Below the pieces are notes generated by a model. That model did not search any database and had not been told where the DNA came from. It saw only the letters and a program-made list of their open reading frames with translations. A DNA stretch of 64,000 bases from Mesorhizobium sp. (GTDB lineage: Bacteria; Pseudomonadota; Alphaproteobacteria; Rhizobiales; Rhizobiaceae): contig NZ_JAEULZ010000030.1 in the NCBI RefSeq assembly GCF_016793485.1, positions 124,001 to 188,000 on the forward strand. The letters are read 5' to 3'. This document shows, piece after piece, positions 40,943 to 58,121 of the stretch (positions are counted from its first letter, which is position 1; each line of letters starts with the position of its first letter). The position numbers and the translations under genes are program-made.

Positions 40943-40965
40943 AAGTGGCTCCCTGAGCAGGACTC
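40943..40965. repeat. attL: displaced copy of tRNA-Asn 3' end
   Basis: This 23-bp stretch, beginning AAGTGGCTCCCTGAGCAGG, repeats the sequence at 58099-58121. Here it is not followed by the rest of a tRNA gene, so it is the displaced 3' fragment left at the far end after integration. Confidence 0.9.
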
Positions 40966-40972
40966 ACTTCTA

Positions 40973-41061
40973 TAACTTTATCGTCCACAGCCGTACACAG
41001 TGAGGCGCTGTAGGCCCTGTAAATAAAGGCTTGCGTTGTCATTGCTAACTTTATCGTCTAC
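40973..41061. repeat. Direct repeat TAACTTTATCGTCYAC x2, probable integrase arm sites
   Basis: The 16-mer TAACTTTATCGTCYAC is at 40973-40988 and 41046-41061, with one mismatch, in the gap between attL and int. Paired direct repeats next to the att core are typical of tyrosine integrase arm-binding sites. No gene lies in 40729-41108 apart from this att region. Confidence 0.5.
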
Positions 41062-41108
41062 CTGTAGCTAATACCCTAATAGTGGGGAAAAAGCGGGGAA
41101 GACGAGAT

Positions 41109-42323
41109 ATGGGGAGCCATACCAAGAACGCGCTGACCGTGAAAACGATCGCATCCAGCAAGGCTCGGAAGCTGCGCGACGGCGGCGGACTCTGGCTCGT
41201 TACCAAAGGGCAGGGCCGCTACTGGATCTTTGACCATCGTTTCGGTGGTAAGCGCCGTGAGATGGGTCTTGGTCCGCTACATACCGTCGGCCTAGCAGAA
41301 GCACGTGATCGAGCGGAAGCTGCCCGCAGGCTGTTGCGGCAGGGCGTCGATCCGATCGGCAATAGAGCCGCAGCGGAAATCGAAGCCGCGCGTGCAAAAG
41401 CGGCGGTGCGAACTTTTGGTGAGTATGCCGACGCCTTCGTCAACGATGCGGTTAAGGCTGGTCGTTGGCGAGGCGCGAGTACCGAGGCCAGATGGCGCAA
41501 TATGCTCACCAACCACGCCGGGCCGATTCGCAGCAAGCCGCTGGCCGACATTGACGTCGCCGCGGTGCTTTCGGCTCTGCGACCGGTTTGGGGATCAAAG
41601 CAGGAGACGGCCGAAAAGCTTCGCGAGGCGATCGAGCGGGTGCTGGATGCCGCCAAGGTCGAGGGGCTTCGCGATGGCGAGAACCCAGCAGCTTGGCGTG
41701 GAAATCTGGAGCACGTGCTCCATCGTCCGGATTCCCTGACCACCACCACAAGTCACGCGGCGATGCCATTCAAGGCAGTCCCGAAGTTTCTGACCGGACT
41801 GCAGAAATTAGACACCATCGGCGCGCGGGCGCTCGAGTTCACCGTGCTGACCGCGGCGAGGTCGGGAGAGGTTAGGGGAGCAAACTGGGGCGAAATCGAT
41901 CTAGAGCGGCGCTTGTGGATCATTCCCCCCGTTCGGATGAAAGGTGGACGCGAGCACCGTGTCCCGCTCTCCGGCCGTGCAATTGCCATTCTGACCGAGA
42001 TGCAGTCGAAGCGCCTGAACGATTTTGTGTTTCCTGGCGCGAAGGATCGGGCACCGATGTCGGAGAACACAATGTCGAAGGTGCTGCGCGAGAACGGCGG
42101 GAAGGGCTTTACTGTTCACGGGTTTCGATCGGCGTTCCGCGATTGGGTGACGGAGGCGACGACCTATGATGGAGCGCTCGCCGAGATGTCCCTCGCTCAC
42201 GTGGTTGGCGACGCTGTTGTCCGCGCGTACGCCCGTAGCGATGCGCTTGATCGGCGACGCGAGCTGATGGCGGATTGGGCGAGGTTCGTGACGACAATGC
42301 CGAAAAAGACGGAAAAGACTTGA
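41109..42323 (+). CDS. int: Tyrosine-type site-specific integrase
   Basis: This 404-aa integrase has an N-terminal DUF4102 (P4-type arm-binding) region: KARKLRDGGGLWLVTK and the LGPLHTVGLAEARDRAEAAR helix. The C-terminal catalytic domain shows the first Arg in LTAARSGEVRGANWGEID and the HGFRSAFRDWVTE box (His-x-x-Arg). SLAHVVGDAVVRAYARSD is the final His/Tyr region. Integrases of this group target tRNA 3' ends, matching the tRNA-Asn att repeats. ATG 41109 follows GGGGAAGACG; an in-frame GTG at 41082 is possible. Confidence 0.93.
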   Translation: MGSHTKNALTVKTIASSKARKLRDGGGLWLVTKGQGRYWIFDHRFGGKRREMGLGPLHTVGLAEARDRAEAARRLLRQGVDPIGNRAAAEIEAARAKAAVRTFGEYADAFVNDAVKAGRWRGASTEARWRNMLTNHAGPIRSKPLADIDVAAVLSALRPVWGSKQETAEKLREAIERVLDAAKVEGLRDGENPAAWRGNLEHVLHRPDSLTTTTSHAAMPFKAVPKFLTGLQKLDTIGARALEFTVLTAARSGEVRGANWGEIDLERRLWIIPPVRMKGGREHRVPLSGRAIAILTEMQSKRLNDFVFPGAKDRAPMSENTMSKVLRENGGKGFTVHGFRSAFRDWVTEATTYDGALAEMSLAHVVGDAVVRAYARSDALDRRRELMADWARFVTTMPKKTEKT

Positions 42324-42369
42324 CGTCGAGTCGCAGAATTTACCGACTAGAACTAACGGAGGTATTTTC

Positions 42370-42573
42370 ATGGCTCACGACAACGACAACATTCTAGTTT
42401 CATTGAACGACGCGGCCCGTATGACGTCGTTGAGCCGTTCAATGCTCAACAAGTACCGGTCCGAGGGACGCTTCCCGCAGGCCGTGGCGATGGGCGAAAA
42501 ACGAGTGGCGTTCGTAAGGTCAGAGGTCACCGCCTGGATCTCTGAGAGGATAGCGGCGAGGGCGGCGGCATGA
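42370..42573 (+). CDS. AlpA-family excisionase/transcriptional regulator
   Basis: This 67-aa protein has a MerR-like winged helix: VSLNDAARMTSLSRSMLNKYRSEGRFPQAV, then KRVAFVRSEVTAWI. That is the AlpA pattern of phage regulators and excisionases found next to P4-type integrases. It follows int by 46 bp in the same direction, with GGAGG upstream. It could direct excision or control int. Confidence 0.85.
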   Translation: MAHDNDNILVSLNDAARMTSLSRSMLNKYRSEGRFPQAVAMGEKRVAFVRSEVTAWISERIAARAAA

Positions 42574-42710
42574 GCCACTGTCGGGACAACTTGTCCTGTC
42601 TGTCGAGGTTATCGGTGACGCCGACAACCTCTGTTCCCTTCAGTTAGTTTCGGTGCAACTTGCCCTGAAACACCTACCGCCTCGGCGGCCCTCTAACCCC
42701 AACGGACCAG

Positions 42711-42944
42711 ATGAAAGTCTTAGCGATCCGCCCGGCACCACCGGGCAGTGGAAGCACGCGTGCACGCTTCGACGTGGAGATGGACGACGGCACCAAGATC
42801 CGCGACCTCAAGCTCGTGCAGAGCCGACAGGGATGGCGGGTCTATGCGCCGCAACGCTTTGGGATGTCGTTGATCACGTTCACGCCTGCAATTGTCGATC
42901 GTCTCGCCGCGGAGGCCCTGCGCCATGTCGAACACACAGCCTGA
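42711..42944 (+). CDS. Hypothetical phage-element protein
   Basis: This 77-aa protein reads as alternating beta strands (ARFDVEMDDGTKIRDLKLVQ, then GWRVYAPQRFG). Small proteins of this form occur ahead of replication genes in rhizobial prophages, and I recall no function for them. It overlaps the next gene by 20 bp, so the two are probably coupled. The ribosome site is weak. A stem-like GAGGTT...AACCTC lies at 42605-42631 in the gap before it. Confidence 0.6.
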   Translation: MKVLAIRPAPPGSGSTRARFDVEMDDGTKIRDLKLVQSRQGWRVYAPQRFGMSLITFTPAIVDRLAAEALRHVEHTA

Positions 42945-44061
42945 ACTGAAGGTCGGCGAGAGCCGAGAATATTGGATGCATAAGGTCGATGCATTCCCGA
43001 GTCCTGTCGCGCAATTTCGGATGGCGCAACTCATCGACTTTGATGACCGTCTCTATGAGACTGCGCGCGTCGTCTACCGCTTCCTGGTCGGCTGGTATCA
43101 CGACGATCATGGTGACGCTCTTCTTTCCCAACGCGAGGTGGCAAGGGTGATGAAGCAGCGGGCGCCCGACGGCTCAATCGTACCGTCACGCAATGCAGTT
43201 CAGCGGGCGATCATCGCCTTGATGGATACTGGTTGGGTGGTTCGCACTGCCAAGGGGCGAGGCAGGAGTGCCAAGAGTCGGAGCCGATATATTCCTGTTG
43301 TGAATGTCCTCGACTTGGCAGCGCAGGGAAAATTCCCGGAACTGGCCCACGCTATTGGGCCGGTTGAAGGCACTCTGAACCGGCCCACGCCAATGGGCCA
43401 GTTAGTGGCCCACGCCAATGGGCCACTTGACGGCGAACCGGCCCACGTGGCGGGCCACCAGACACGACTACAGGACCCGGTCACAAAGACCCGGGTACCT
43501 GTAGTAATAGATAATTCCGCCCCGGTTGACGGCCGGCCTTTGGCCGCCGCACCGGGGGACGGTTTTGATCGGCTCTGCTCTGCCTACGCCAAATCTGACG
43601 ATAACCGCGCAAAGGCCAGAGCCGCGTTCAAGGATATCAATCCAGACGACACAGAACTGGAGCGAATGGTGACGGCTGCCGCTTCATGGAAGCGTACGGC
43701 CACGGGCAAGCGCATGAGTCTTGAGCGCTGGCTGCATGAGCGTCGCTGGGAGACCGCCGAGGAGTTCGCCAACGACAATCGAAAAACACATCGCTTTCCC
43801 TCGTGTGTCATCACCAGGATAAAGCCGAGATGGAACGACGATGACTTTGAAGGTGCTCAGATATGGTTCCGTGACCGGGACGGCACTGCCCACACTCGCG
43901 TCTTAGATGCCTCGGAGTATGGGTGGCTCAAGGAGTGCTGCTACGAAAATGCTCGGCTGATGGATCCGAGCGAAGATCTCCACGAGTTCGTTGGCGCCCG
44001 ATTCCAGATTGATGCGGAGGGCTTCGTTGCAGACCTAACGGAGTGGCAAGATGCAGCCTAG
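42925..44061 (+). CDS. Probable phage replication protein (winged-helix N-terminus)
   Basis: This 378-aa protein has a helical N-terminal ~100 residues with a winged-helix look (LLSQREVARVMKQRAPDG, then NAVQRAIIALMDTGWVVR), as in phage replication initiators and helix-turn-helix primase-like proteins. A Pro/Gly-rich linker region encoded by palindromic DNA repeats follows, then a conserved C-terminal region with MSLERWLHERRWETAEEF. It is at the phage replication position. The replication role is inferred from position, domains and the embedded repeats. GGAGG is 9 bp before ATG 42925. Confidence 0.6.
   Translation: MSNTQPELKVGESREYWMHKVDAFPSPVAQFRMAQLIDFDDRLYETARVVYRFLVGWYHDDHGDALLSQREVARVMKQRAPDGSIVPSRNAVQRAIIALMDTGWVVRTAKGRGRSAKSRSRYIPVVNVLDLAAQGKFPELAHAIGPVEGTLNRPTPMGQLVAHANGPLDGEPAHVAGHQTRLQDPVTKTRVPVVIDNSAPVDGRPLAAAPGDGFDRLCSAYAKSDDNRAKARAAFKDINPDDTELERMVTAAASWKRTATGKRMSLERWLHERRWETAEEFANDNRKTHRFPSCVITRIKPRWNDDDFEGAQIWFRDRDGTAHTRVLDASEYGWLKECCYENARLMDPSEDLHEFVGARFQIDAEGFVADLTEWQDAA
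43344..43456. repeat. Four palindromic iteron-like repeats GGCCCA-N6-TGGGCC inside replication gene
   Basis: Units are at 43344-43361, 43382-43399, 43407-43424 (all perfect arms) and 43440-43456 (5-bp spacer, CGGGCC right arm). Two units share the same spacer CGCCAA. Clustered dyads within a replication gene are how the lambda origin sits inside gene O, so this may be the element origin. Confidence 0.55.
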
Positions 44062-44093: not shown

Positions 44094-44309
44094 TCAGCGT
44101 GCGCGAAAAATGCTCGAATGCTCAGTCGATTTGTGGATCGCAAATCCAGACGTCGTCGCACCAACGGCCAAGCCTCGCTTCGTGATCGAGGCCAGTCCAC
44201 GCGCGACGAGGTTGTCGACTGCGGCGCGGTCGAGTTTGGCGAGCGCCTGCGGACCGCTGGAGCAGAGAAGTCGAAGAAGGGAGAGTGCCTTGCGATCGTC
44301 TAGGGTCAT
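44094..44309 (-). CDS. Small hypothetical protein, paralogue of the next gene
   Basis: A 71-aa protein opens TLDDRKALSLLRLLCSSGPQ, then an AAVDNLVARGLAS segment and a G-rich end. It is homologous to the 66-aa product of 44428-44628 (shared pattern ALxLLxxLCxxG, then L-x-DR, LxxRGLAS, GxAVxAT). The fold suggests a small winged helix, but no DNA-binding motif is certain. It lies antisense to the main phage transcription. The start at 44309 has a weak ribosome site. Confidence 0.5.
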   Translation of the reverse strand: MTLDDRKALSLLRLLCSSGPQALAKLDRAAVDNLVARGLASITKRGLAVGATTSGFAIHKSTEHSSIFRAR

Positions 44310-44427
44310 GGCGTGCTTTGTTTCCAGATGGAGGCCCGCGGAGATCCCCCGATTCCCGCGGGCCTGTGGGCAGCCTTCGTCTCGCTGCCCGTAACCCATG
44401 TTAAATTACCGCGTTCTACCCGGCGTA

Positions 44428-44628
44428 TCACCGAGAATCGAGGTACTCCCGATAGTGGTCGCGACCCAGACTTGTGGCTGCAACCGCCACCCCCGAATCG
44501 ACAAAGGACGCGAGGCCCCTGGTAATTAGTTTGTCGGCGTGCGTGCGATCGACCAACTCCGAATCCTGGTGACCTTCCTCGCAGAGCGTCTTCAGCAGAG
44601 CCATTGAGTCGTCATCGGCCATGTTCAT
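44428..44628 (-). CDS. Small hypothetical protein, paralogue of the preceding gene
   Basis: A 66-aa protein opens MNMADDDSMALLKTLCEEGH and includes DRTHADKLITRGLASFVDSG. It shares its helix pattern with the 71-aa product of 44094-44309, so the pair arose by duplication. Both are minus strand in a stretch with no other genes. The start could be 44622 instead. The function is unknown. Confidence 0.5.
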   Translation of the reverse strand: MNMADDDSMALLKTLCEEGHQDSELVDRTHADKLITRGLASFVDSGVAVAATSLGRDHYREYLDSR

Positions 44629-45275: not shown

Positions 45276-46424
45276 TTGACCCGCTACACATCGCCCGCCG
45301 CCCTGAAGCGGTGGCGGGAAGCTGCTGCATCGAGTCCAGACCGGTATGACGCACGAGGCTACTTTGTAACCAGGCCTAGCGGCGGCGAGACGTGGTCCGA
45401 CTATAAACCTGAGCGACGCGGCAGAGTGACGGCAAGACGTATCGTAGACCCTGAAGCCGCAGTCTGGATTGGCGCGCGTTATGCCCCAGCGAACGACAAC
45501 CGCGGCAACCGACGTTGGACGGGTGAAGAAAACTACGGCCCGACGGCTGACCTTCTAGCTCGGAAAGCGGACCCAGGTGCCGCTCGCGAATACACTGGCG
45601 ACGTCGCTTCTCGCCTTCTCAACGCCGGCAATCTGGAAAGCTATTTCGTGCTGCGTTCGGTGCGCGCGCTATTGTCTCCAGTCGGCTTGTCGGGCGCGAA
45701 CGATAATGGCGCAGAGGATGCCGACAACGAGATGCGCGATGGTTTCGGTCTCGACTACGCCATCGCTGAAGACAACGGCGAGAAGGCTGTCGAACGGTTT
45801 CTGGACACTGGCCTTCCCCCGTCTGGGGTGCTGCGGTTCCGACAGCGCTCCGGCAATCCGGGCAGTCGAATTACTGCAAAGCATCGGCGTGAAGAGCGCG
45901 AAGGCCGGCACGTAGATAGATACTTGTCGCTGCGCGGCGTTCCGTTCTCACCAAGCGCGCCCACGGCAGACGGCGAGCCGCCATGGCGGTCACACCGGCC
46001 CATCAATGCAATCGCCCGTGCCGAACTGGCCGCGGCATGTGAGCGAACAGAAAAGCAAGACGGAGGCTGGAGGAAGGTAACCTGGACGCGTTATGCGCCA
46101 ATTGCTGCCCGCGTATATGGCGGGATGGCAATCTACTCGGAGATGAAGGGAGTAGGCGAAGGCAAGACTTCCGCTTCGTCGCATCCGGGCGTGCGCGAGC
46201 TTTATAGGCAAGGCGCCGAAAATGAGTTTCGAGCAAAGATGTCGGGGCGTTCGATGGGCATCATCGATGCCATCCTGCAGCGCGACGGGTACGAAGCCGT
46301 AGGCGAAGCGCTGGACATTTCCCGTAATGGCGCAAAGAAGGCCGTAAAGTCTGCGTTGCGTGAAGCTTGGACTGTATTGCACAGCATCACCGGTGAGGCA
46401 TTGCCAGAAAAAATCGCTGCGTAG
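45276..46424 (+). CDS. Hypothetical phage-element protein
   Basis: This 382-aa protein has a basic N-terminus (YTSPAALKRWREAAASSPD), a long central region of no recognised family, and a C-terminal helical stretch (GIIDAILQRDGYEAVGEALDISRNGAKKAVK) that resembles a helix-turn-helix. It sits between the replication part and the head-assembly genes. GAGGAG lies just upstream of the TTG start at 45276. Regulatory and packaging roles are both possible; neither is shown. Confidence 0.55.
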   Translation: MTRYTSPAALKRWREAAASSPDRYDARGYFVTRPSGGETWSDYKPERRGRVTARRIVDPEAAVWIGARYAPANDNRGNRRWTGEENYGPTADLLARKADPGAAREYTGDVASRLLNAGNLESYFVLRSVRALLSPVGLSGANDNGAEDADNEMRDGFGLDYAIAEDNGEKAVERFLDTGLPPSGVLRFRQRSGNPGSRITAKHRREEREGRHVDRYLSLRGVPFSPSAPTADGEPPWRSHRPINAIARAELAAACERTEKQDGGWRKVTWTRYAPIAARVYGGMAIYSEMKGVGEGKTSASSHPGVRELYRQGAENEFRAKMSGRSMGIIDAILQRDGYEAVGEALDISRNGAKKAVKSALREAWTVLHSITGEALPEKIAA

Positions 46425-46598: not shown

Positions 46599-47114
46599 AT
46601 GAAATCAAAACCTTTGGCGAGGGACGTCGTGGACGTCTTCGCCGAACACCTTGGCCTGCCTAGATCGTTCGTCAGGCAGGTCGTTAATGCCCTTAAGGTC
46701 GCGGAGCGTATCGCCTCTGCCCGGCCGGTTGCACCCGAAGTAACACCCCGCGCCATTGCGCGTATTGCGCTTGCGCTGACCGCACCATCAATCCGAAAGG
46801 CCGTAGAAACGGAACGCGTTCTCGGCTCGCTCGGCTACGTTGCCGGCCAAGGCGAGATCAACCCGGAAGATGAGATCACTGACCTCATTGAGTCCTCCGT
46901 CGGCTGGCGCACCAGATACGATTTCAACCTGCGTGACGGCGCAATCATCGTGGCTCATGAAGACCTGGTCGTGACCGTGGGCGACAGCACTTTCGGCGCC
47001 AAAGGGCAGAAGGCCGTCAAAGCCGGTGGCCTCAGCCGCTTCAGCAGAATCAAGTTTTCTGCTCTCGCTGCAATTGCGCGGGAGTTGCTTCCCAATGACC
47101 GTGGAGTCGCCTAA
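46599..47114 (+). CDS. Hypothetical phage-element protein
   Basis: This 171-aa protein has an N-terminal helical part (LARDVVDVFAEHLGLPRSFVRQVVNALK) resembling a helix-turn-helix, and a mixed alpha/beta C-terminal part with TRYDFNLRDGAIIVAHEDL. Its last base overlaps the next ATG (TAATG), so the two are coupled. I recognise no family. Position before the prohead protease suggests a morphogenesis or regulatory role. Confidence 0.5.
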   Translation: MKSKPLARDVVDVFAEHLGLPRSFVRQVVNALKVAERIASARPVAPEVTPRAIARIALALTAPSIRKAVETERVLGSLGYVAGQGEINPEDEITDLIESSVGWRTRYDFNLRDGAIIVAHEDLVVTVGDSTFGAKGQKAVKAGGLSRFSRIKFSALAAIARELLPNDRGVA

Positions 47115-47731
47115 TGGCCAAGTCTGAAATCAATCCCGAGAAACCAGTCCCCACTCCCGAGGAAGTGTCTCAGCCTCTTCGTGACCTCTACGAACGTCAA
47201 AATAAGCTGACTGCGGCTCAGAAGGACGACGAAGATGAGTTGCGTGCGATCTATGCAGAGGACGGCGTCGCTCGCTCTCAAACTCAGAAGCGCGACCAGG
47301 TTGATGCTCTGGTCCGCGGGACCAGTTGGGAGCCGCCTGCTTCCAGCCGTGACAGAATCGCGGAAATCGCCAGGCGCCGATCATTGCTTGTTGAAGCGCA
47401 GGAAGAGCTTGCAGCGCTTATTCGCAAAGAGCGTATCGCGGCAAGCAAGATGGTCATCGACGAATTCTTGGACGAGCAGAAGATGTTGGCGCAGGAGTTT
47501 TGGTCGCACTTGCTTCCGGCCATCAAGGTGCACGCCCGGTTCGGCGAAATGAAGGCTCGGCTAGAACGAGCAGGCGTCGATACCACCAGCGGGCCGCTTT
47601 ACGACTTTGGCCGCGATCTCTGCGGGTGGCCATCCAGCCGAACCGATCATGCCGCCTACGCTATGCGCGATGCGGTTCGTCGAGGTTATATCGCCGCGAA
47701 GGATTGCCCTGTTGGGTATGGGATTCAGTGA
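47114..47731 (+). CDS. Hypothetical phage-element protein, mainly helical
   Basis: This 205-aa protein is strongly helical and charged (coiled-coil-like ERQNKLTAAQKDDEDELRAIY, and RRRSLLVEAQEELAALIRKERIA). It has no recognised family. It lies in the tight unit upstream of the prohead protease, whose start it overlaps. A scaffold-like or terminase-accessory role is possible but unproven. Confidence 0.5.
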   Translation: MAKSEINPEKPVPTPEEVSQPLRDLYERQNKLTAAQKDDEDELRAIYAEDGVARSQTQKRDQVDALVRGTSWEPPASSRDRIAEIARRRSLLVEAQEELAALIRKERIAASKMVIDEFLDEQKMLAQEFWSHLLPAIKVHARFGEMKARLERAGVDTTSGPLYDFGRDLCGWPSSRTDHAAYAMRDAVRRGYIAAKDCPVGYGIQ

Positions 47732-48395
47732 GATGGCGCGAGAATACTACGAAACCCGCGCCCTCGGCGGCCGCGTCGAGTTCCGCGATAACGATGGCGG
47801 CATCGAGTATACCAGCGGCCCGATCGTGTCAGTTGGCGGTGTCCCGCAGCTAGGGCGTTTGCCCGAGAAAAAGGCCGCCCAATCCGTCGCACTGCAGGGT
47901 TACGTTGTAAGGTTTAACAAGCCTCATGCTTTCAAGGGTGGCATCGATGTGTTTGCTCCAGGGTGCTTCGACGCATCGCTGGCCAGTCGCAAGCGTGTCG
48001 GCTTCTGGCTTGCGCATGAGGCCGGCACAGAGATCGCATCGACCGATGGCGACTTGGAACTCATGGCCGACGGGACCGGGCTGGCTTTCCGACTAAAGAA
48101 CCCGCTGGCAGACCTCGTAACCGAGGTTAGGGAACGACGGATGACAGCTATGTCGGCCGGCTATCACGTGGTGCGCCAAGAGCACAAAACCGTAGCCGGC
48201 GAGCGCGTACGATTTATCCAAGAGTGCGACCTCACGGAGGTCAGCTTGTGTAAGGCAGGTGCTGTCAAGCAGGCGTTCATCGATGTGGTTGATCTGCAGC
48301 AGCGTGGGTCACTGCGCGATGACGTCAAGTCCGGCCGTGTGCTGGCCGATGGTGCATTCGTGGCATTGATGAGGTCGCTGGGCAGGGCGCAGTGA
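47718..48395 (+). CDS. HK97-family prohead protease
   Basis: This 225-aa protein has the U35 prohead protease core: GYVVRFNKPHAFKGGIDVFAPGCFDAS, VGFWLAHEAGTEIAST with the catalytic His, and TAMSAGYHVVRQE with the catalytic Ser. It would cleave scaffold and capsid during prohead maturation. No capsid or portal gene is present in the element, which is odd. It overlaps the preceding gene; ATG 47733 is an alternative start. Its stop overlaps the 21-aa frame that follows (TGATG). Confidence 0.85.
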   Translation: MGFSEMAREYYETRALGGRVEFRDNDGGIEYTSGPIVSVGGVPQLGRLPEKKAAQSVALQGYVVRFNKPHAFKGGIDVFAPGCFDASLASRKRVGFWLAHEAGTEIASTDGDLELMADGTGLAFRLKNPLADLVTEVRERRMTAMSAGYHVVRQEHKTVAGERVRFIQECDLTEVSLCKAGAVKQAFIDVVDLQQRGSLRDDVKSGRVLADGAFVALMRSLGRAQ

Positions 48396-48947: not shown

Positions 48948-48954
48948 GCGGGGC

Positions 48955-50487: not shown

Positions 50488-50543
50488 GAAACATCCCCCC
50501 GGATTTCGTGTTAGGCTTCGATTGTTAACTCCCGGAGGGAACA

Positions 50544-50720
50544 ATGGCTGGAATGAATCCGGAAAGAAAGACCCAGAACGACATAGAAAAAGCCAACCGA
50601 AAAATGCTTGAAGAACAGGATAAGCGTTTGAAAGAATGGCGTGAAAATCGGATTAATTCCATCGACAGAGATCGTAAGGAGGCTTCGTCTCAGCACCTGA
50701 GGTCGATGTCTCTCAGATAG
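50544..50720 (+). CDS. 58-aa charged helical protein divergent to the deaminase
   Basis: ATG 50544 has a strong CGGAGGG. The product is very hydrophilic and helical (NDIEKANRKMLEEQDKRLKE, then WRENRINSIDRDRKEASS). It is not a member of a family I know. Only 56 bp separate its start from the deaminase start, so at least one of the two promoters must lie within the opposite gene. A terminator follows at 50789. A role in controlling the deaminase is possible. Confidence 0.6.
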   Translation: MAGMNPERKTQNDIEKANRKMLEEQDKRLKEWRENRINSIDRDRKEASSQHLRSMSLR

Positions 50721-50893: not shown

Positions 50894-51094
50894 ATGACCA
50901 ATTTCGACCGGGCGTTCCGCGCCGCGGCAGCCTTGTCGCGCCATTTATCCGGCCGCGGAACTACCTACGACGAGATCTCGGACGCCCTGCTTGCGGAGGG
51001 TCTCGCCATCAGCATCGGAACCCGCAGCCGCGCAGAGACCGCAGAACGCCTGCGCGCCTTAGCCGCCTATCTGGAGGCGACCGATGGCAACTGA
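50894..51094 (+). CDS. Hypothetical small phage protein before tape measure
   Basis: This 66-aa helical protein (FRAAAALSRHLSGRGTTYDEI, then AETAERLRALAAYLEATD) overlaps the tape-measure start by 11 bp. At this position siphophages often encode tail assembly chaperones, but no sequence match is evident. AGGAAACACC precedes the ATG. It is the first gene of the tail part. Confidence 0.55.
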   Translation: MTNFDRAFRAAAALSRHLSGRGTTYDEISDALLAEGLAISIGTRSRAETAERLRALAAYLEATDGN

Positions 51095-52910
51095 TATGCA
51101 GCGCTTGGTCGTTGCGCTTGAAGCACGTACGAAAGCTTTCGAGAACGCGCTCAACAAAGCGAATGGCATTGCTAACAAACGCGCTCGGGCGATCGAAACC
51201 ACTTTTGCCAAAGCCAACGCGAAGATTGGCTCGACCATAGCCGGTATCGGTAAGGGATGGGTTGCTGGCATCGCCGCTGGACTTTCCGCTGGCGCAGTAG
51301 CCAAATTCTCCGACGCAGCTACGCGCATCAACAACGCCCTCAAGGTGGCCGGCTTGTCCGGCGAGGATCTGCAGAAAACCTATGCGGCGTTGCGCGACAG
51401 CGCCATGAAAAACGCTGTCCCGCTTGAGGATATGGTCACCCTCTACAGTCGAGCCTCGATGGCCGCAAACAATCTCGGCGCCAGCCAGGAAGACTTGCGC
51501 AAATTTTCCGAAAATGTCGCGTTGTCCCTACGAGTGTCCGGAAAGTCGGCACAGGAAAGCAGCGGCGCGCTATTGCAGCTGAGTCAGGTGCTGGGTGGCA
51601 GTGTCGTCCAAGCTCAGGAATATAATTCGCTGATTGATGGGGCCTACCCACTGCTACAGGCGGTGGCCTCGGGATTGAAGGAAGCGGGCGGCGATGTCGG
51701 CAAGCTGACGCAGCTTGTAAAGGCTGGCAAGGTTCCGACCAAGGCGTTCTTTGACGCATTCCAAGCGGGTGCCGTCGTGCTCGAGCAGAAGGTTGCCGGA
51801 TCCCAACTTACGCTTAGTTCGGCACTGGGTAATTTACAGACGGCGCTGATTGATACGGCTTATGAATTCAACACGTCCACCGATGCCGGCGGCCGCTTCG
51901 CTAAAGGCATCAACAACGTTGCCGAAGCCCTCGCCAGTTTCGACGTATCGGGATTCCTAGCTGAGCTTGGCGAAGCGAAATCTGCCCTCGAGAGTTTCTT
52001 GACCGACGTCGGAAACTCAGACTTCTTCAAGTGGCTGGCAGAGCAGGCAGTTGGTCAGGAGATTACGATCGGTCAGCCGATCAATCTGGAAACGGTCGAC
52101 GCGCAGAACAAGTTGGCGACACTTCAGCGCGACATCGATCTGCTGAAGGAGCGCATCGAGGAAAACAAGAAAGTCGAACTGGATTCGACCGAAGCTTCCG
52201 CACGGCTTGCAGATCTCCTGAAGCAAGCAGCGGCTGTCCGCGCCACGATATCCGGACTGCAGACTGGACCAGGCTATCAGCCTGGCACTCCGGGCGATCC
52301 CAATGCGCTCGCGCAACGCACGGGCGGACTAGCACCTCCTGTGGTAGCGAAACCTGTGTCGCTCACCGGGTATGCATTGCCGGGCGATTCTGACGGCGGC
52401 AAGAAGGAACGGCTGAACGAATACGAGCGGGAAAACGAGCAGATACGCGAGAGGACTGCTGCTCTGCAGGCAGAGACGGCTGCGCTAGCTGGACTGAATC
52501 CTCTCATCAACGATTACGGATACGCAGTCGAAAAGGCGAGGGCGGTTTCAGAACTGGAAAACGCGGCACTTGCCGCCAAGGTCGAGCTTACACCGCAGGT
52601 GAAGGCGAGCATCGATGGTCTCGCCACGAGCTATGCCAACGCTGTGGTGGAAGCCGAAATGCTGGCGGAAAGCCAGGAGTCTGTGCGCGAGGCTGCGGAA
52701 GGTCTCCGTGATCTCGGCAAAGATGTCTTGGGCGGAATTGTCTCCGATCTGCGCCAGGGGAAAAGCGCCGCAGACATTCTTGCGAGTGCCTTGGACCGCG
52801 TCGCCGACCGGCTGGCCAGCATGGCGCTGGACTCGCTCTTCAGCGGTCTGGGCGGCGGCGGCGCCCCCATCGGTGGACTGCACAAACTCAATTTCCGGAG
52901 AGCCGCATGA
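51084..52910 (+). CDS. Phage tail tape-measure protein
   Basis: This 608-aa protein has an N-terminal tape-measure domain: helical MQRLVVALEARTKAFENAL, then a Gly-rich hydrophobic segment GKGWVAGIAAGLSAGAVAKF. A long alpha-helical body ends in coiled-coil stretches (QNKLATLQRDIDLLKERIEE). Length sets tail length; at roughly 1.5 A per residue this would be near 90 nm, a short tail if the whole protein is extended. It overlaps the next gene by an ATGA. Confidence 0.85.
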   Translation: MATDMQRLVVALEARTKAFENALNKANGIANKRARAIETTFAKANAKIGSTIAGIGKGWVAGIAAGLSAGAVAKFSDAATRINNALKVAGLSGEDLQKTYAALRDSAMKNAVPLEDMVTLYSRASMAANNLGASQEDLRKFSENVALSLRVSGKSAQESSGALLQLSQVLGGSVVQAQEYNSLIDGAYPLLQAVASGLKEAGGDVGKLTQLVKAGKVPTKAFFDAFQAGAVVLEQKVAGSQLTLSSALGNLQTALIDTAYEFNTSTDAGGRFAKGINNVAEALASFDVSGFLAELGEAKSALESFLTDVGNSDFFKWLAEQAVGQEITIGQPINLETVDAQNKLATLQRDIDLLKERIEENKKVELDSTEASARLADLLKQAAAVRATISGLQTGPGYQPGTPGDPNALAQRTGGLAPPVVAKPVSLTGYALPGDSDGGKKERLNEYERENEQIRERTAALQAETAALAGLNPLINDYGYAVEKARAVSELENAALAAKVELTPQVKASIDGLATSYANAVVEAEMLAESQESVREAAEGLRDLGKDVLGGIVSDLRQGKSAADILASALDRVADRLASMALDSLFSGLGGGGAPIGGLHKLNFRRAA

Positions 52911-53611
52911 GCGCATTTCTCGCAGTGACGTACGACGATCGCGTCGAGCTTCTTACCGATGGCGCTATCTATACCGCGGACGGCACTCTAACGGGCATTC
53001 GGCGCAAGGTCTGGCCGGTCGGCAATTTGCCGATCGCCATCACGGGTCGTGGAAATTCGGGGGTGCTCGACGCTTTCGTAGCGGTGTTCCGAGTGGCGGC
53101 TGGTGCCTGCGCAACCGTCGACGACGCGTTGGCCTCAATGGCCGGCGTCATTGAAAGACGGGCCGGGAAGGGGATGCCATCTGATGTCGAGATGGTGATC
53201 TGCGCCATCTCGGAATCTCGCGGGCCGTCCCTCTTCTATTTTGCTACCGCGGATATGTGGGGCGCGGGTATCGAGCCATGGACGTTGGTCGAGGTCGATA
53301 GCCCGTTTTACGGCGGTCCTCTCGTCGACGTGTCAGATCTGTCCGCGCGAGATGGCCTTGCCGAAGTTGGCGCCGAGGTATTCTCGCGGATGCGGCGTAC
53401 GCCGGGCCGTAATCCACTCAATCCGGAGATGCCAAAACTGTACGGCATCGGTGGCCACGTCGACCACACTACAGTGTCGGCCGCGGGCTGCACCATTGAG
53501 CGCATTCATGAGTGGCCGGAGGACGTGGTTGGTAGAAGGATCGACGGTCTCGGCGCCGACAAATCGTTCGGCAGCCGCTTCGGCGCCAGGGTGGTGAAGT
53601 CGAGAAGGTGA
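52907..53611 (+). CDS. Phage-element protein, Ntn-hydrolase/HslV-like, paralogue 1
   Basis: This 234-aa protein has residues DGA at 18-20 and KVW at 34-36, a Gly-rich strand (PIAITGRGNSGVLDAF) and a conserved C-terminal EDVVGRRIDGLGA. The same layout is in the product of 54422-55087. It resembles HslV/proteasome beta strands, where GDGQVT, a KV and a G-x-A-G strand follow the N-terminal Thr. Here the first residues are MSAFLAVT, so the catalytic Thr would not be terminal and activity is doubtful. It follows the tape measure by ATGA overlap. Confidence 0.55.
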   Translation: MSAFLAVTYDDRVELLTDGAIYTADGTLTGIRRKVWPVGNLPIAITGRGNSGVLDAFVAVFRVAAGACATVDDALASMAGVIERRAGKGMPSDVEMVICAISESRGPSLFYFATADMWGAGIEPWTLVEVDSPFYGGPLVDVSDLSARDGLAEVGAEVFSRMRRTPGRNPLNPEMPKLYGIGGHVDHTTVSAAGCTIERIHEWPEDVVGRRIDGLGADKSFGSRFGARVVKSRR

Positions 53612-54009
53612 GCTACATCGGCATTCCGTTCCTAGATCGCGGCAGGGATAAGGCCGGCTGCGACTGCTGGGGGCTCGTCCGCCTCGTGTTCGCAGACCGC
53701 GGTGTCGATCTGCCCACTTACGGCGAGATTGGCGCGAAAGAGGTGCTGGCGGTCGCTCGCGCTATGCAAGCGGACAGCATCGTAGAGCCGTGGCTTGAAG
53801 CGACAAAGCCCTATCGAAAGCTTGACGTCGTCGTGATGAAACGCCTTTCCGAGATCGGCCGGGCTCCGGTCCATGTCGGTGTTTTGATCGATGCCAAGCG
53901 CATGCTTCACACGACAAAGGATGTGGGGTCTGCCCACATAGTTCCGCTCAACTCGCCGGCCCTGCCGTTCCGCGTTTTTGGCGTTTACCGACACAAGGAA
54001 CTTGCATGA
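53608..54009 (+). CDS. NlpC/P60-family tail assembly peptidase-like protein
   Basis: This 133-aa protein has the catalytic Cys in GCDCWGLVRLVF and the catalytic His in HVGVLIDAKRMLHTTK, the order of NlpC/P60 cysteine peptidases. Phage tail-tip proteins of this kind (gpK-like) help tail assembly or cross the cell wall. The GTG start overlaps the preceding stop (GTGA). Its end overlaps the J-like gene. Confidence 0.85.
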   Translation: MSYIGIPFLDRGRDKAGCDCWGLVRLVFADRGVDLPTYGEIGAKEVLAVARAMQADSIVEPWLEATKPYRKLDVVVMKRLSEIGRAPVHVGVLIDAKRMLHTTKDVGSAHIVPLNSPALPFRVFGVYRHKELA

Positions 54010-54425
54010 ACAATATTGAAGGACTCTACCGTCGGCCGTTCTCGACTGAGCCGCCTAAGCGACTGGCGTTCGCGCCAGGACTAACTCTCGCCGACATGGC
54101 AGCGATGGCAGATCTGCCGTCCGACTTCGGGGAGACAGGAACAATCTGCGTTGGTGGCCGCGTTATGCCGCGCGATATGTGGTCGACGGCGACGCCCAAG
54201 TCTGGCCATGTCGTGACGTTCCATCACATGCCGCTTCATGGCGGCGGTGGCGGGCGCAAGGCAGTGCTGGGCATCATCGTAGCGATTGCCACAGTACTTA
54301 CCGCAGGGCTGGCGCTTCAATACGGAATACCGGCGCTCGGCATTGCGGGCGGCACCTGGCAGGCTGCGCTAGTCGGCAGTTGCTTTTCGCCCACTGGATC
54401 CTGCGCGCTGGAGGCCATGCAATGA
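54006..54425 (+). CDS. Tail-tip protein J-like N-terminal fragment
   Basis: This 139-aa protein starts like J-type tail-tip/host-specificity proteins: LTLADMAAMADLP, then ICVGGRVMPRDMWSTATPKSGHVVTF. A Gly-rich loop (HGGGGGRKAVLGIIVAIATV) and a hydrophobic stretch follow. Full J proteins are usually near 1,000 residues; here the frame ends at 54425, directly at the next ATG. Either the gene is truncated or the element uses a short J form. Coupled by ATGA on both sides. Confidence 0.65.
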   Translation: MNNIEGLYRRPFSTEPPKRLAFAPGLTLADMAAMADLPSDFGETGTICVGGRVMPRDMWSTATPKSGHVVTFHHMPLHGGGGGRKAVLGIIVAIATVLTAGLALQYGIPALGIAGGTWQAALVGSCFSPTGSCALEAMQ

Positions 54426-55087
54426 GTTCGATACACTGCTTTCGAACTCTTACCGGGTTTGCCGTTTTATCGGATGGCGCCGTAACCGACCTTCACACAG
54501 GAAATCTCGCCGCGACTACATCGAAGGTTTGGTGCGGCAACAATTTTGCGGTCGGCCTGCTTGGGCATCCGCACAACCTGATTGCCGGATCGGCCCGCGC
54601 CCTGGCGGAAGCGCAGTCGTTTGATCATGTGTGCGACCTGATCGATAAACAGCTTCCGGTGCGCAAAGTGCTTACACCGGATTGTTTGGCGACGGTACCA
54701 GTCGTCGGTTGGTCGGATCGAACTCAATCTTGGGTCATGGTCGTCGCCAATTTCTCGGACCAAGATCCGAACTTCGCACCGTGGTCAATCAATGTGATCG
54801 AAGGCGCCGAGTTCAGTCGCGGTCCGGTTGTTCCACTCGAGGAGATGAAGGAAATTTTCGCTGGCCGGTTGTGGCAATTTGACGAGCCAGGGATACGCAG
54901 GATTGGCGCTGACTATTTCGAGGCTCAGCGTCGGATAAAAATGCAAACGCCGGGCTTTCCGCCGATGCACATGGTTGGCTCCTTCGTCGAACTAACCATT
55001 GTCGACCACGCTGGTGTGCGTCAGGAGCGTCTGCGGACGTTGGAGCAGGATGTGGTTGGGCGGCCGATTGAGCCGTTGGCGGCTTAA
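54422..55087 (+). CDS. Phage-element protein, Ntn-hydrolase/HslV-like, paralogue 2
   Basis: This 221-aa protein has DGA at 18-20 and KVW at 35-37, then FAVGLLGHPHNLIAGSARAL, matching paralogue 1 across its length. The middle share is PW-x-x-x-V-x-x-x-x-F...GP, and the C-terminal one is DVVGRPIEPLAA. It occupies the place where the main body of J should be. A structural or receptor-binding role is as likely as enzymatic activity. A strong terminator follows at 55161. Confidence 0.6.
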   Translation: MSSIHCFRTLTGFAVLSDGAVTDLHTGNLAATTSKVWCGNNFAVGLLGHPHNLIAGSARALAEAQSFDHVCDLIDKQLPVRKVLTPDCLATVPVVGWSDRTQSWVMVVANFSDQDPNFAPWSINVIEGAEFSRGPVVPLEEMKEIFAGRLWQFDEPGIRRIGADYFEAQRRIKMQTPGFPPMHMVGSFVELTIVDHAGVRQERLRTLEQDVVGRPIEPLAA

Positions 55088-55807: not shown

Positions 55808-55815
55808 GGCCGGTG

Positions 55816-56091
55816 TTAAGCGGCGCGCTGGTACTGCATCTTGCTATCCAGCCAGTCGACGACATCTTTGGGCCCCCAGCCGGTGTAAGGCTTGGTCACC
55901 CGCAGAACGAAAAAGTGGTCGTTGCTGTCGAGATGCTTTTTGAAACGCGCGTAGACCTGATCAGCGGTCTCGAGCGTGTCGATGATGTAGGAAGACTCAG
56001 AAAGTCGAGCGTAGTCCGTCTTGCGGATTTCGGCGACGATGTTCGGACGCTTCACCTCTTTGTTGAGGTCGTAGTTCACTGAAAACAGCAT
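55816..56091 (-). CDS. SinR/Cas2-fold-like small protein
   Basis: This 91-aa protein opens MLFSVNYDLNK, then YARLSESSYIIDTLETADQV and LDSNDHFFVLRV, a layout shared by SinR-type and Cas2-like ferredoxin folds, where a first strand ends in an Asp. No CRISPR array or cas genes are near, so it is not part of a CRISPR system. Its function is unknown. AAGGA lies about 10 bp upstream of the ATG. Confidence 0.5.
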   Translation of the reverse strand: MLFSVNYDLNKEVKRPNIVAEIRKTDYARLSESSYIIDTLETADQVYARFKKHLDSNDHFFVLRVTKPYTGWGPKDVVDWLDSKMQYQRAA

Positions 56092-56501
56092 GGGAGGAGC
56101 TGTCCTTCTATTAGGGTTGATGTTGAACCCTCGGGACGCTATCTCTCCTTTTGCACAGTGAGTGACGCGTTGTCCGCCTCACGGCATTCACCGCGACACA
56201 AACAAGAGGGCTGCACCCGATTTCGGATGCAGCCCTTTTTGGTTTGGCTGCGGACCTTCTTGCAGATGCAGCGCAACCATGACAGGAAAATTCGATCCTG
56301 TCTACACTAATTGTTAACCGTCGCGCTTTGTAGCTAAGGGTATACCCGTTATCCCCAACCGTCAATTCTCTATTTTGGACAAAATGACGCTATGGCCGGG
56401 ATGCCCGTTAGCGGCACCGACTTAGGTGGCGAGCATGTGGTGATGCTGTTTTCCGTGAACAAGACAGGAGTGCTGACGTAACGGGAGATTCGTTTGGCGC
56501 C
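56092..56501. other. 410-bp region with a plus-strand terminator and an operator-like dyad
   Basis: A terminator GGGCTGCA...TGCAGCCCTTTTT (56208-56240) points rightward although no plus-strand gene is upstream. The perfect dyad ATTTTG-GA-CAAAAT lies at 56372-56385. A 29-codon frame begins near 56391 but has no good ribosome site. No gene is supported. Confidence 0.45.
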
Positions 56502-56666
56502 CTACTCCGCGGCGCCCTTCGGCAGGAAGCCTTTGGTCTCGAGGTGCTCCATAAGAACCTTCTCCACCAAGCTCGATACCGATCGGCGATCCTCTTTGGC
56601 GGCTTGGTCGAGTGCTTCCTTCAACTCAACCGGTATGCGCAACGCCAGATTGGCGGACTTGACCAT
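56502..56666 (-). CDS. Ribbon-helix-helix (CopG-like) small regulator
   Basis: This 54-aa protein matches ribbon-helix-helix regulators: first strand ANLALRIPVELKEALD, then AKEDRRSVSSLVEKVLMEHL. Such proteins bind as dimers of dimers to short dyads and often repress themselves. The dyads at 56693 and 56740 lie just upstream, making self-regulation likely. The start is ATG 56666; longer in-frame sequence is unconserved. Confidence 0.8.
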   Translation of the reverse strand: MVKSANLALRIPVELKEALDQAAKEDRRSVSSLVEKVLMEHLETKGFLPKGAAE

Positions 56667-56692
56667 GTAATCTCTCTGATTTGAATGTGTAC

Positions 56693-56753
56693 TGCATTGT
56701 AATGCATTTTTAGTTTGACCGCTATCCCGACCTATGTCATGCATTGTCATGCA
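56693..56753. promoter_or_regulatory. Two TGCATTGTMATGCA dyads upstream of the RHH gene
   Basis: TGCATTGTAATGCA (56693-56706, perfect dyad) and TGCATTGTCATGCA (56740-56753) are 47 bp apart. They lie between the divergent RHH gene and the 98-aa gene. They are good candidates for RHH operators. Confidence 0.55.
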
Positions 56754-56777
56754 ACGCATTACATCGGAGACTACCCA

Positions 56778-57074
56778 ATGCCACAAGCACCGCTTGCGGC
56801 GACCGGCGAAGCCATGCCGATCGACCGCCATCGCATACAGCGCATTATCGACAACCTGATCGACCTCCTCGACTCGACAGAACCCGATCCTGACTTTGAA
56901 CCCAATCTAGGTTGGGCGCGCACATGGAGTGGAGCGCCTGGCGAGTTCGGCAACGTCGATGATCGTGAGGGGGACGACGAGAGAGAAGACGACCATGCCG
57001 AGCGTTTCGGAATCGGCGATCTGGACGGGCTTATCGAGCAGTGGCCGTCACAATTCGGGGAGATGGCGATATGA
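56778..57074 (+). CDS. Hypothetical acidic phage-element protein
   Basis: This 98-aa protein is very acidic in its middle (NVDDREGDDEREDDHAE). It opens PIDRHRIQRIIDNLIDLLD, then EPDPDFEPNLGWARTW, which I recall from short rhizobial prophage proteins. The function is unknown. ATG 56778 has GGAGACTACC upstream. Its stop overlaps the next ATG. Confidence 0.55.
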   Translation: MPQAPLAATGEAMPIDRHRIQRIIDNLIDLLDSTEPDPDFEPNLGWARTWSGAPGEFGNVDDREGDDEREDDHAERFGIGDLDGLIEQWPSQFGEMAI

Positions 57075-57289
57075 CCCAAGCCATGGACAGACGCACCATC
57101 CTCGCCGGCCTTGGCCTGGCGCCGCTAGCCGCCGCTCCTGCTGTTGCGGCTGCCACCGAAACACCTGAGGAGCGCGTCGAGCGCCTCACCGTCGAGTTGC
57201 ATGCCGCTCTCGTGGCGGAGCACGGCGGGAGATGGCGCGTCCAGGTGGAGGACGAATTCGTCATCATCGCGCGGTCCATGCGTCGATGA
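57071..57289 (+). CDS. Small exported or Tat-signal-like phage protein
   Basis: This 72-aa protein starts MTQAMDRRTILAGLGLAPLA, a twin-arginine-like start followed by Ala-rich hydrophobic residues, then a charged helix (TPEERVERLTVELHAALVAEHGG). It is coupled to the preceding gene by ATGA. It is probably exported or membrane-tethered, but the partner is unknown. Confidence 0.55.
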   Translation: MTQAMDRRTILAGLGLAPLAAAPAVAAATETPEERVERLTVELHAALVAEHGGRWRVQVEDEFVIIARSMRR

Positions 57290-57328
57290 CCCCGACTTAG
57301 GCGGCGCCAACCGTTCCGCCACCCAACT

Positions 57329-57352
57329 AGCCCGCCTTGTGCGGGCTTTTTC
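57329..57352 (+). terminator. Rho-independent terminator after the 72-aa gene
   Basis: AGCCCGC and GCGGGCT are perfect arms around CTTGT, followed by TTTTTCTTT. It ends the small plus-strand unit. Confidence 0.85.
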
Positions 57353-57528
57353 TTTGAGAGGAGGAAGCCCGCTCCGATCACAATGTTCGGAGAGCCACCG
57401 AAGTGGGCTTCCCGGCCGTTGTCGAACCGGCCGACTAGTGAACTTCCACTGGCTGAAGCTTGTTCCCCGGCACAAGGAATTCCAAGGCACATAATTTCAA
57501 CTCGGGATGTTGAAACGTTGTGCGCCTT

Positions 57529-57554
57529 TGACTAATTCTATGCACGCTTAGTCA
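57529..57554. promoter_or_regulatory. Dyad TGACTAA-N12-TTAGTCA upstream of second RHH gene
   Basis: The 7-bp arms are perfect and the spacer is 12 bp. It sits just before the RHH gene at 57576, fitting an operator for self-control. Confidence 0.4.
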
Positions 57555-57575
57555 CTTACTCAAAAGGGGCATAGG

Positions 57576-57815
57576 ATGGCTGCGCTGGAACGTCCTGATC
57601 GATTGCAGGTGATGCTGAGCCCGGAAGAGCTCGAGGCATTGGACAATTGGCGATTTGAAAAACGAATGCCCAGCCGGGCTGCAGCAGTAAGGGAATTGCT
57701 TAGGCGCGGGCTTGCCGCGGATGGCTTCCTGTCCGCCGCCCAGAGCAGCAAGTCTGCCGACTTCGGGATATTGAAAGACAGTTCTAAATCTGACGGAGAG
57801 GGCGAACCGACTTAA
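57576..57815 (+). CDS. Ribbon-helix-helix family regulator
   Basis: This 79-aa protein opens MAALERPDRLQVMLSPEELEAL with a strand-helix of ribbon-helix-helix type, then AAAVRELLRRGLAADGF. The last ~25 residues are a charged tail. It has a dyad upstream and GGGGC ribosome-site sequence. It is the second RHH protein of the element and could be an antitoxin-like or phage regulator; no toxin is adjacent. Confidence 0.7.
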   Translation: MAALERPDRLQVMLSPEELEALDNWRFEKRMPSRAAAVRELLRRGLAADGFLSAAQSSKSADFGILKDSSKSDGEGEPT

Positions 57816-57928
57816 CCCTTGCGGCGTGGAACCATTCACCGTCAGCGCCGTTCTTACAGCACCCCCGCCTACAAAGGCCTGTCGCTCTCCCCCGAGGCGG
57901 CGGGCCTTTTCTTTCGAAGGAAGCCGCC

Positions 57929-58018
57929 ATGCGTATCGCAGAGCAATTTGTGCTGTTCAGCCTGAGCTACGCACTAATCGTCGGATTCGTCGTGGGTGGA
58001 TTATGGCTTGGGAGCTAA
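57929..58018 (+). CDS. 29-aa membrane microprotein
   Basis: The frame at ATG 57929 has a strong AAGGAAG upstream. It encodes one hydrophobic helix (EQFVLFSLSYALIVGFVVGG) with a short end. Its place beside the right attachment region and its good ribosome site favour a real gene. The function is unknown. Confidence 0.45.
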   Translation: MRIAEQFVLFSLSYALIVGFVVGGLWLGS

Positions 58019-58021
58019 GCC

Positions 58022-58048
58022 AAAAGCGGGGAGAAAAAGCGGGGAAGA
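58022..58048. repeat. Tandem AAAAGCGGGGA repeats at right end, also present at left end
   Basis: AAAAGCGGGGA occurs at 58022-58032 and 58035-58045, and at 41089-41099 beside int. The longer 16-mer GAAAAAGCGGGGAAGA at 58033-58048 matches the left copy except its first base context. Both ends sharing it fits integrase or excisionase binding sites. Confidence 0.45.
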
Positions 58049-58098
58049 AAGTTGCCAATTTGGCAAATTTCCTTTGTTCACAAAGCTTTGGGTGGAGT

Positions 58099-58121
58099 AA
58101 GTGGCTCCCTGAGCAGGACTC
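58099..58121. repeat. attR: att core at the 3' end of tRNA-Asn
   Basis: This copy of the 23-bp repeat, beginning AAGTGGCTCCCTGAGCAGG, is the one that completes the intact tRNA gene. Its partner is at 40943-40965. Confidence 0.9.

Follow-up and report, generated by a model that had tools for sequence, protein, structure and literature searches.

A 17.16-kb element in a tRNA-Asn gene of Mesorhizobium sp. is probably a phage satellite with genes for prohead protease, small terminase and tape measure

We analyzed a stretch of 64,000 nucleotides from Mesorhizobium sp. (NCBI RefSeq assembly GCF_016793485.1, contig NZ_JAEULZ010000030.1, positions 124,001 to 188,000 of the forward strand); this whole stretch is called the window here. 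It carries an element of 17.16 kb that is integrated in a tRNA-Asn gene and is probably an integrative phage satellite. The element is bounded by an exact 23-bp repeat at 40943-40965 and 58099-58121, and the window holds just these two copies. In 300 control stretches taken from the window, a 23-bp repeat at a spacing of 14-19 kb never occurred; the longest repeat in the controls was 14 bp. The G+C content is 57.7% inside the element versus 63.4% in the left and 62.4% in the right flank. In another genome of the same genus (G001) the DNA of the left flank is 4.5 kb away from tRNA-Asn, as compared to 19.4 kb in the window; this spacing indicates that such an element is absent from this interval in G001. 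The two flanks fall on separate contigs in genomes G002 and G003, which are therefore uninformative on presence or absence at this site.

Twenty of the 25 open reading frames (ORFs) of the window that were taken as genes were scanned with Pfam and PHROGs; the remaining five encode 66-119 amino acids (aa). The element comprises the following features, with att denoting the attachment sites.

40943..40965: attL, 23-bp copy of the tRNA-Asn 3' end
41082..42323, +: tyrosine integrase, 413 aa (phrog_1, E 5e-44; Pfam Phage_integrase)
42370..42573, +: AlpA-type regulator/excisionase, 67 aa (Pfam Phage_AlpA, E 3e-12)
42711..42944, +: small SpoVG-like ORF (weak Pfam match under the cut-off)
42892..44061, +: replication initiator (phrog_270, E 1e-6; no Pfam match); overlaps the previous ORF, start codon uncertain
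43344..43447: iteron-like array within the replication gene, four 8-mer copies, three of them extended to palindromes; candidate origin
44094..44628, -: two small ORFs, 101 and 66 aa, similar by eye
45276..46424, +: putative regulator, 382 aa, of a family common to relatives
46599..47114, +: hallmark protein 1, 171 aa
47114..47731, +: hallmark protein 2, 205 aa, a long helical hairpin
47607..48395, likely start 47733, +: prohead protease of the S78 family (Pfam Peptidase_S78, E 1.1e-19)
48561..48947, +: small terminase (TerS), 128 aa (phrog_83, E 3e-7; no Pfam match)
48955..50544, -: AvcD/dCTP-deaminase-type anti-phage gene, cargo in a slot that separates TerS from the tail genes
50894..51094, +: small conserved protein, 66 aa, just upstream of the tape measure gene (relatives at 60% and 67% in two elements of G003)
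51084..52910, +: tail tape measure protein (TMP), 608 aa (Pfam TMP_3, E 6e-44; phrog_17300, E 3e-133)
52907..53611, +: tail-associated protein adjoining TMP, 234 aa (relatives including those in loci L014, L093 and L131; no family match)
53608..54009, +: NlpC/P60 tail peptidase (Pfam NLPC_P60, E 2e-9; phrog_329)
54006..54425, +: central tail fibre J, N-terminal fragment of 139 aa (phrog_31, E 1e-6, profile positions 140-216 of 1565)
54398..55087, +: probable paralogue of the 52907..53611 gene (weakly similar to the homologue in L014, E 1e-5)
55816..57815: right-end small genes, including two ribbon-helix-helix regulators
58099..58121: attR, repeat copy overlapping the tRNA-Asn 3' end
58102..58177, -: tRNA-Asn (gtt), the integration target, confirmed by Rfam

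The integrase and the AlpA protein have relatives with 58% and 77% identity in locus L118 from Mesorhizobium tianshanense, which is likewise at tRNA-Asn. The SpoVG-like ORF is kept upstream of the replication gene in relatives. The array inside the replication gene consists of four GGCCCACG repeats, a number that was attained in 0 of 60 codon shuffles. With an integrase, an AlpA regulator, an initiator, iteron-like repeats and att repeats of its own, the element thus has the integration and replication functions that are generally expected of a satellite. The 382-aa protein gave no match of note with Pfam or PHROGs; by eye it appears to end in a C-terminal helix-turn-helix. Hallmark protein 2 is a candidate factor for capsid assembly or capsid size.

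Of the head and packaging genes the element has the protease and TerS. In an alignment of the protease one His and one Ser column are invariant in all 19 rows, 17 of which come from the satellite family; these two columns are presumably the catalytic residues of the S78 family. TerS has an 81% identical relative in locus L022, and the genes for protease, TerS and TMP are uninterrupted in the window. No capsid, portal, large terminase (TerL), tail tube or lysis family was recognized by Pfam and PHROGs in the 20 ORFs. Profiles built for TerL, portal, capsid and tail tube also found no match among the ORFs of the element with at least 80 aa; the tube profile is weak (it detected 5 of 18 controls), and the absence of a tail tube in the window therefore rests mainly on PHROGs. 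By these searches the element is without the capsid, portal and TerL genes of a complete particle; lacking a complete set of particle genes is a general feature of satellites. The first-pass annotation, made from the letters of the sequence, had delimited the element by the 23-bp repeat of the tRNA 3' end, listed an integrase, AlpA, a replication protein, a prohead protease, a small terminase, a tape measure, NlpC/P60 and a J-like fragment, noted the absence of capsid, portal, large terminase, tail tube and lysis genes, and pointed to a defence gene. All of these assignments were borne out by the searches, the last by the matches of the deaminase given below, and the unassigned genes contained no capsid, portal or TerL according to the profiles.

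The same profiles were applied to 1248 ORFs of at least 80 aa from 23 elements, namely the window element and the relatives described below. TerL was found in 0/23 and portal in 0/23, a count that covers partial sequence in at least L022, L128, L129, L130 and L134, because these are cut by contig ends. The capsid profile matched one element (L117, two ORFs), which is not that of the window, and the protease profile matched 17 of the 23. In 18 control phage or prophage loci the profiles for TerL, portal and capsid recovered 14, 15 and 17, respectively; this is a rough guide to sensitivity and overstated, because the controls were preselected for phage head or tail genes and also supplied seeds, and some of them are truncated. 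The controls comprise 11 of 16 loci from one search, L006, L007 and L116, and four IMG/VR contigs. L060, L063 and L065 were left out as unclassified; tblastn detected no head gene in L060 and L063 and only a capsid in L065. In L117, from Nitratireductor aquibiodomus, the HK97 capsid gene is split in two ORFs (8127-9226) and occupies the position of the protease.

The TMP of the window is 38-45% identical to TMPs of Rhizobium, Mesorhizobium and Labrenzia phages over 76-96% of its length. In the phages with close TMP relatives that were compared (Mesorhizobium phage vB_MseS-P1 and Rhizobium phage RHph_TM3_3_14B) the order of genes is TerS, TerL, portal, protease, capsid, connectors, tube and TMP. 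The order in the window differs from this: the protease precedes TerS, and only the reversed deaminase gene and small ORFs lie between TerS and TMP. A TMP was detected in 18 of the 23 elements. Its place is taken by a tail-fibre gene in L125, L129, L130 and L134 and by a gene resembling glycoside hydrolases and baseplate proteins in L118. Further to the right, the ORF at 54179-55087 encodes 302 aa if the first start is used and resembles the neighbour gene of TMP. This neighbour at 52907..53611 looks Ntn-hydrolase-like by eye only. At 55816-56091 (minus strand) a 91-aa protein has a weak Cas2-like match (PADLOC, E 9e-4) and a match to phrog_1090.

Much of the gene set of the window, mostly in the same order, recurs in 22 other loci, the hosts of which belong to Mesorhizobium, Ensifer, Rhizobium, Bradyrhizobium, Nitratireductor, Bosea and Pseudaminobacter; viral contigs are also among them. 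A search with hallmark protein 2 over 346 genomes of the host's family matched 11, the window's own included. A scan of GTDB contigs with a P27-type TerS, which is present in several members, resulted in 25 loci, of which 19 were kept; these 19 form the set of 23 elements together with the window, L014, L022 and L093. Element limits are defined by att sites in eight cases and were set by eye in the others, several of which are cut by contig ends. Left out were the prophage L116, L124 and L136, L137, L138 and L139 (few or no hallmarks in these last four) as well as, from a search that gave ten loci, L089-L091, L094 and L095 (contig ends or few hallmarks). Six pairs are duplicate contigs (L053=L115, L054=L128, L086=L126, L087=L122, L088=L123, L092=L130). 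Hallmark protein 1, hallmark protein 2, the protease and the regulator were present in 21, 19, 17 and 12 of 23 loci, respectively, in a test that includes L136 in place of L093 and counts the query sources (window, L014, L022 and L115). Exceptions to the order are L119, where TerS comes before the regulator, as well as L014 and L122, in which no integrase was recognized at the left end; the integrase-looking gene of L123 matches phage integrases in PDB.

Two members from IMG/VR illustrate the architecture. In L014 (17.6 kb) TerS is followed by a reversed 289-aa gene and by TMP. L022 (14.2 kb) starts with integrase, AlpA, SpoVG-like, replication and regulator genes and the two hallmarks, followed by protease and TerS; it continues with a reversed 369-aa gene, a gp10-like gene, TMP and an extra gene where others have fibres. 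Genome G003, of the same genus and with the same contigs as Mesorhizobium sp. YM1C-6-2, contains two such elements on separate contigs. The first-pass annotation had proposed, as a check, to look for the same gene order at tRNA-Asn elsewhere in Rhizobiales; L118 of M. tianshanense is a related element at this tRNA gene. Of the 11 other tRNA-bearing family loci that were tried, 7 showed a repeat of the tRNA end, while L126, L130, L133 and L134 showed none. The eight att-bounded members measure 15.70-17.16 kb and occupy six kinds of tRNA gene; for each of them 0 of 300 controls attained the length of the repeat.

Window: 17.16 kb, tRNA-Asn
L118: 16.22 kb, tRNA-Asn
L120: 16.37 kb, tRNA-Met
L123: 17.12 kb, tRNA-Phe
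L122: 15.70 kb, tRNA-Met
L125: 15.80 kb, tRNA-Pro
L131: 16.33 kb, tRNA-Ser
L117: 15.91 kb, tRNA-Lys

Several observations concern TerS in these and other loci. In L118 (10001-11185) a P27-type TerS is followed by a second one of the window type, which matches in two frames; this suggests that one TerS may have been replaced by the other. The prophage L116 from Ochrobactrum sp. CM-21-5 has TerS, TerL, capsid and TMP, whereas no portal was recognized by the profile. Downstream of its capsid there is also a P27-type TerS, together with the gene that neighbours this TerS elsewhere. In L124, from a gammaproteobacterial bin, a 68% identical P27-type TerS is located by a protease and a capsid gene, near an integrase-like gene and tRNA-Asn; maybe this is another type of satellite. 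Plasmid pRL11 of Rhizobium johnstonii 3841 (L138) has the P27-type TerS with the small neighbour gene, and a 1089-aa ORF nearby.

The putative defence cargo lies in the TerS-tail slot. The deaminase of the window matches Pfam dCMP_cyt_deam_1 (E 8e-17) and PADLOC dCTPase (E 8e-161, residues 25-519 of 529); it matches this defence family along most of the protein and thus belongs to it. In the AvcID system AvcD turns dC into dU (PMC10511110). While the deaminase of the window resembles this system, no AvcI-type RNA was identified beside it; the Rfam scan returned the tRNA only, and no search aimed at AvcI was made. With slot limits set by hand, a reversed ORF of at least 180 aa is present between TerS (or the protease) and the tail genes in 12 of the 23 elements. 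Among 11 slot proteins scanned with Pfam (that of L129 was not scanned) two were named, including a protein with an AbiJ N-terminal domain as cargo of L054/L128, and nine had no match. PADLOC gave no match for ten slot proteins of relatives, L054's included. The two named cases suggest that the slot may be a defence hotspot.

The host genome contains a second element on contig C49 (613196-630691; L152, L153), which has a length of 17.44 kb and a 56-bp repeat at tRNA-Leu. Its genes include an integrase, a helicase/primase, a ClpP-like head protease, HNH/TerS-like genes, TerL, a gp10-like gene and a TMP that is 67% identical to that of L022; no capsid or portal was seen among the ORFs inspected. 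This element appears to be a different architecture that follows the same idea as the window element, and it merits a separate study. In addition, contig C34 has a cluster resembling gene transfer agents (GTAs) at about 77194-92426 (L150, L151), with a terminase-size gene, a portal-like gene, an HK97 capsid, a tube-like gene and a 1294-aa protein.

We compared the window element with known satellites by their descriptions. In the PICI-like elements (PLEs) of Vibrio cholerae a satellite-encoded TMP replaces that of the helper, which results in chimeric tails, and deletion of tmp lowers transduction by 96% in PLE1 and by 99% in PLE4, as reported in PMC12987554 (2026). The legend of Extended Data Fig. 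10 in this source also names PLE-like elements and capsid-forming phage-inducible chromosomal islands (cf-PICIs) with putative tmp genes. The window element shares the satellite-encoded TMP with PLE1, PLE4 and PLE11 and the carriage of an anti-phage gene with PLE11 (PMC12987554). It differs from PLEs, by description and not by gene homology, in that no prohead protease or phage-type TerS is described for them in the available parts of that source; furthermore, the PLE helper ICP1 has a contractile tail, whereas vB_MseS-P1, the annotated phage with a relative of the window TMP, shows no sheath in the stretch inspected. By their description, cf-PICIs encode both terminase subunits along with capsid, protease, portal and connectors (PMC10690885). 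They resemble the window element as satellites with TerS and a head protease, some with a putative tmp (PMC12987554), but capsid, portal and TerL, their defining feature, were not found in it.

AlpA-type regulators are carried by PICIs, and TerS is present in some of them, as in the window element. The element also resembles EcCICFT073 and PmCI172 in having a specific att site, an integrase and a size close to their roughly 15 kb (17.16 kb in the window). Gram-positive PICIs are described as free of phage structural genes; this is not absolute, since PmCI172 and SaPIbov5 encode a capsid homologue (PMC6092414). The window element differs from this description by its protease, TMP, NlpC/P60 and J fragment, and 22 of the 23 elements differ from PmCI172 and SaPIbov5 in having no capsid homologue. 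In SaPIbov5 the homologue of one helper head protein, Ccm, redirects the form of the capsid, as reported in PMC8569155. The capsid homologue of L117 is similar to this, but the head component of most family members is a protease. Judged by these descriptions, the family looks built as satellites are, and yet has neither the capsid of cf-PICIs nor the freedom from structural genes of Gram-positive PICIs. In the open-licence literature we found no description of a capsid-less satellite family with protease, TerS and TMP, as judged by titles and the starts of abstracts.

From the sequence comparisons we consider the window element, with a probability of roughly 75%, to be an integrative phage satellite that would depend on a helper and that belongs to an undescribed family across Rhizobiales. 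This is the first of two explanations offered by the first-pass annotation, a satellite that borrows a helper, and it is favoured by the missing particle genes and by the relatives, the closest of which are not larger prophages with deletions; they are of similar size where bounded and lack the same parts.

A number of results weigh against this reading, in addition to the limits on the profile counts given above. The TMP of the window is about 120 aa shorter than two phage relatives (724 and 729 aa), and some decay of the right end is possible because of this and because J is only an N-terminal fragment. A shorter TMP was considered as a trait of the family and not supported: the median was 629 aa on the satellite side (16 of 19 loci, i.e. 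18 of the family and the C49 element, with no match in L119, L122 and L131) versus 729 aa in phages and prophages (15 of 15 loci), with p 0.35. At least two of the three genes for hallmark 1, hallmark 2 and protease are missing from L117, L121 and L135. The gene of L014 that was considered as integrase and the integrase-looking gene of L122 had no PDB match, so that no integrase could be confirmed for these two loci. The P27-type TerS is not specific for satellites, as it also occurs in the prophage L116. Iteron arrays do not emerge as a family trait: in 18 replication regions they were clear in the window only (0/60 shuffles), with 1/60 in L093 and L121, 3/60 in L132 and L122 and nothing in the other 13. 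Fold searches at E 0.001 found no viral match for hallmark 2 (mean predicted local distance difference test score 85.6) and no PDB match for hallmark 1 (mean score 76.4); after re-alignment of hallmark 2 with PDB entries the matches were common helical arrangements, and P4 Sid ranked 37th. Since the fold searches gave no convincing match, no function is assigned to the two hallmarks. Finally, there is no evident helper phage in the host's own genome by Pfam searches for capsid and TerL and one TerL query. This query, from a rhizobial phage, had no match; the only Pfam capsid match lies in the GTA-like cluster and the only Pfam TerL match in the capsid-less C49 element, other families of capsid and TerL not having been searched.

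The alternative of a defective prophage starts from an ordinary temperate siphophage whose head module was deleted, perhaps upon arrival of the deaminase gene. It would account for the phage-type protease, TMP, NlpC/P60 and J fragment, for the identity of the TMP with those of phages, for the truncation of J and for the deaminase in the place of the TerL-portal-capsid genes of phages. However, the same genes are absent in 22 other loci with differing tRNA sites, TerS types and cargo, and the bounded members are near-constant in size, as packaging into one small head would predict and random decay would not. Also, the protease stands ahead of TerS, opposite to the order in phages, its His and Ser columns are retained, and the contents of the slot vary or are absent. 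A defective prophage is hence quite unlikely. The second explanation of the first-pass annotation, a prophage with a replaced head module, is unlikely as well for the window copy, because the slot of the relatives holds other cargo or none. An unlikely origin is also a cf-PICI lineage, in which capsid and packaging genes were lost while protease and TerS were retained. The split HK97 capsid at the protease position of L117, in a similar architecture, and the putative tmp genes of some cf-PICIs (PMC12987554) agree with such a descent. On the other hand, a capsid occurs in 1/23 elements and TerL and portal in 0/23, so that capsid making is not a trait of the family.

A small self-sufficient phage with capsid, portal and TerL of unknown families is very improbable. 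Several genes are unassigned and the 382-aa one is large enough, but the other ORFs above 250 aa are accounted for by integrase, initiator, protease, deaminase, TMP and the 54179-55087 ORF, so that TerL and portal could not both be accommodated. The 382-aa protein, moreover, aligns with relatives whose C-termini resemble DNA-binding regulators by eye, and a protein like it sits upstream of genuine portal and capsid genes in contig L008. Hardly credible is a domesticated element, i.e. a GTA or tailocin remnant that is retained for the benefit of the host. The host would gain from the defence cargo; yet an integrase, AlpA, a replication gene and att repeats belong to the element itself, neither a tail tube nor a sheath was recognized in it, and the genome has a separate GTA-like cluster.

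Our best reading of the satellite family is that it would supply the parts that take decisions in assembly (protease, TerS and tape measure or fibre) and the helper the bulk of the particle. The helper would be a siphophage with an HK97-type head, and its growth in the cell would cause the satellite to excise and replicate. The satellite protease, perhaps together with the 205-aa hallmark protein 2, may then steer the helper capsid to a small head for about 16-17 kb of DNA, while the satellite TerS would point the helper TerL at satellite DNA. The tape measure, or the tail fibre in relatives, would join a chimeric tail that is otherwise made of helper parts. As a resident, the satellite may guard its host against other phages by the cargo of the slot, here the dCTP-deaminase gene. 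The chances are about even that this amounts to a distinct satellite strategy, in which one element of 16-17 kb re-programmes head, packaging and tail of the helper and has exchangeable tail and defence modules. In such a strategy the satellite would encode the deciders (for the head a capsid-maturation protease plus a candidate size factor, for the choice of the packed DNA TerS, and for the tail a tape measure or fibre) and no bulk parts.

Control of tail assembly by a satellite was reported for the PLEs only in 2026. Members of the family described here occur in several culturable genera. The slot, with the dCTP deaminase, the AbiJ-type gene and nine proteins that Pfam did not match, is a place to seek new anti-phage genes in soil bacteria. 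If the proposed strategy is true, satellites can steer every stage of particle building by encoding the deciding components alone.

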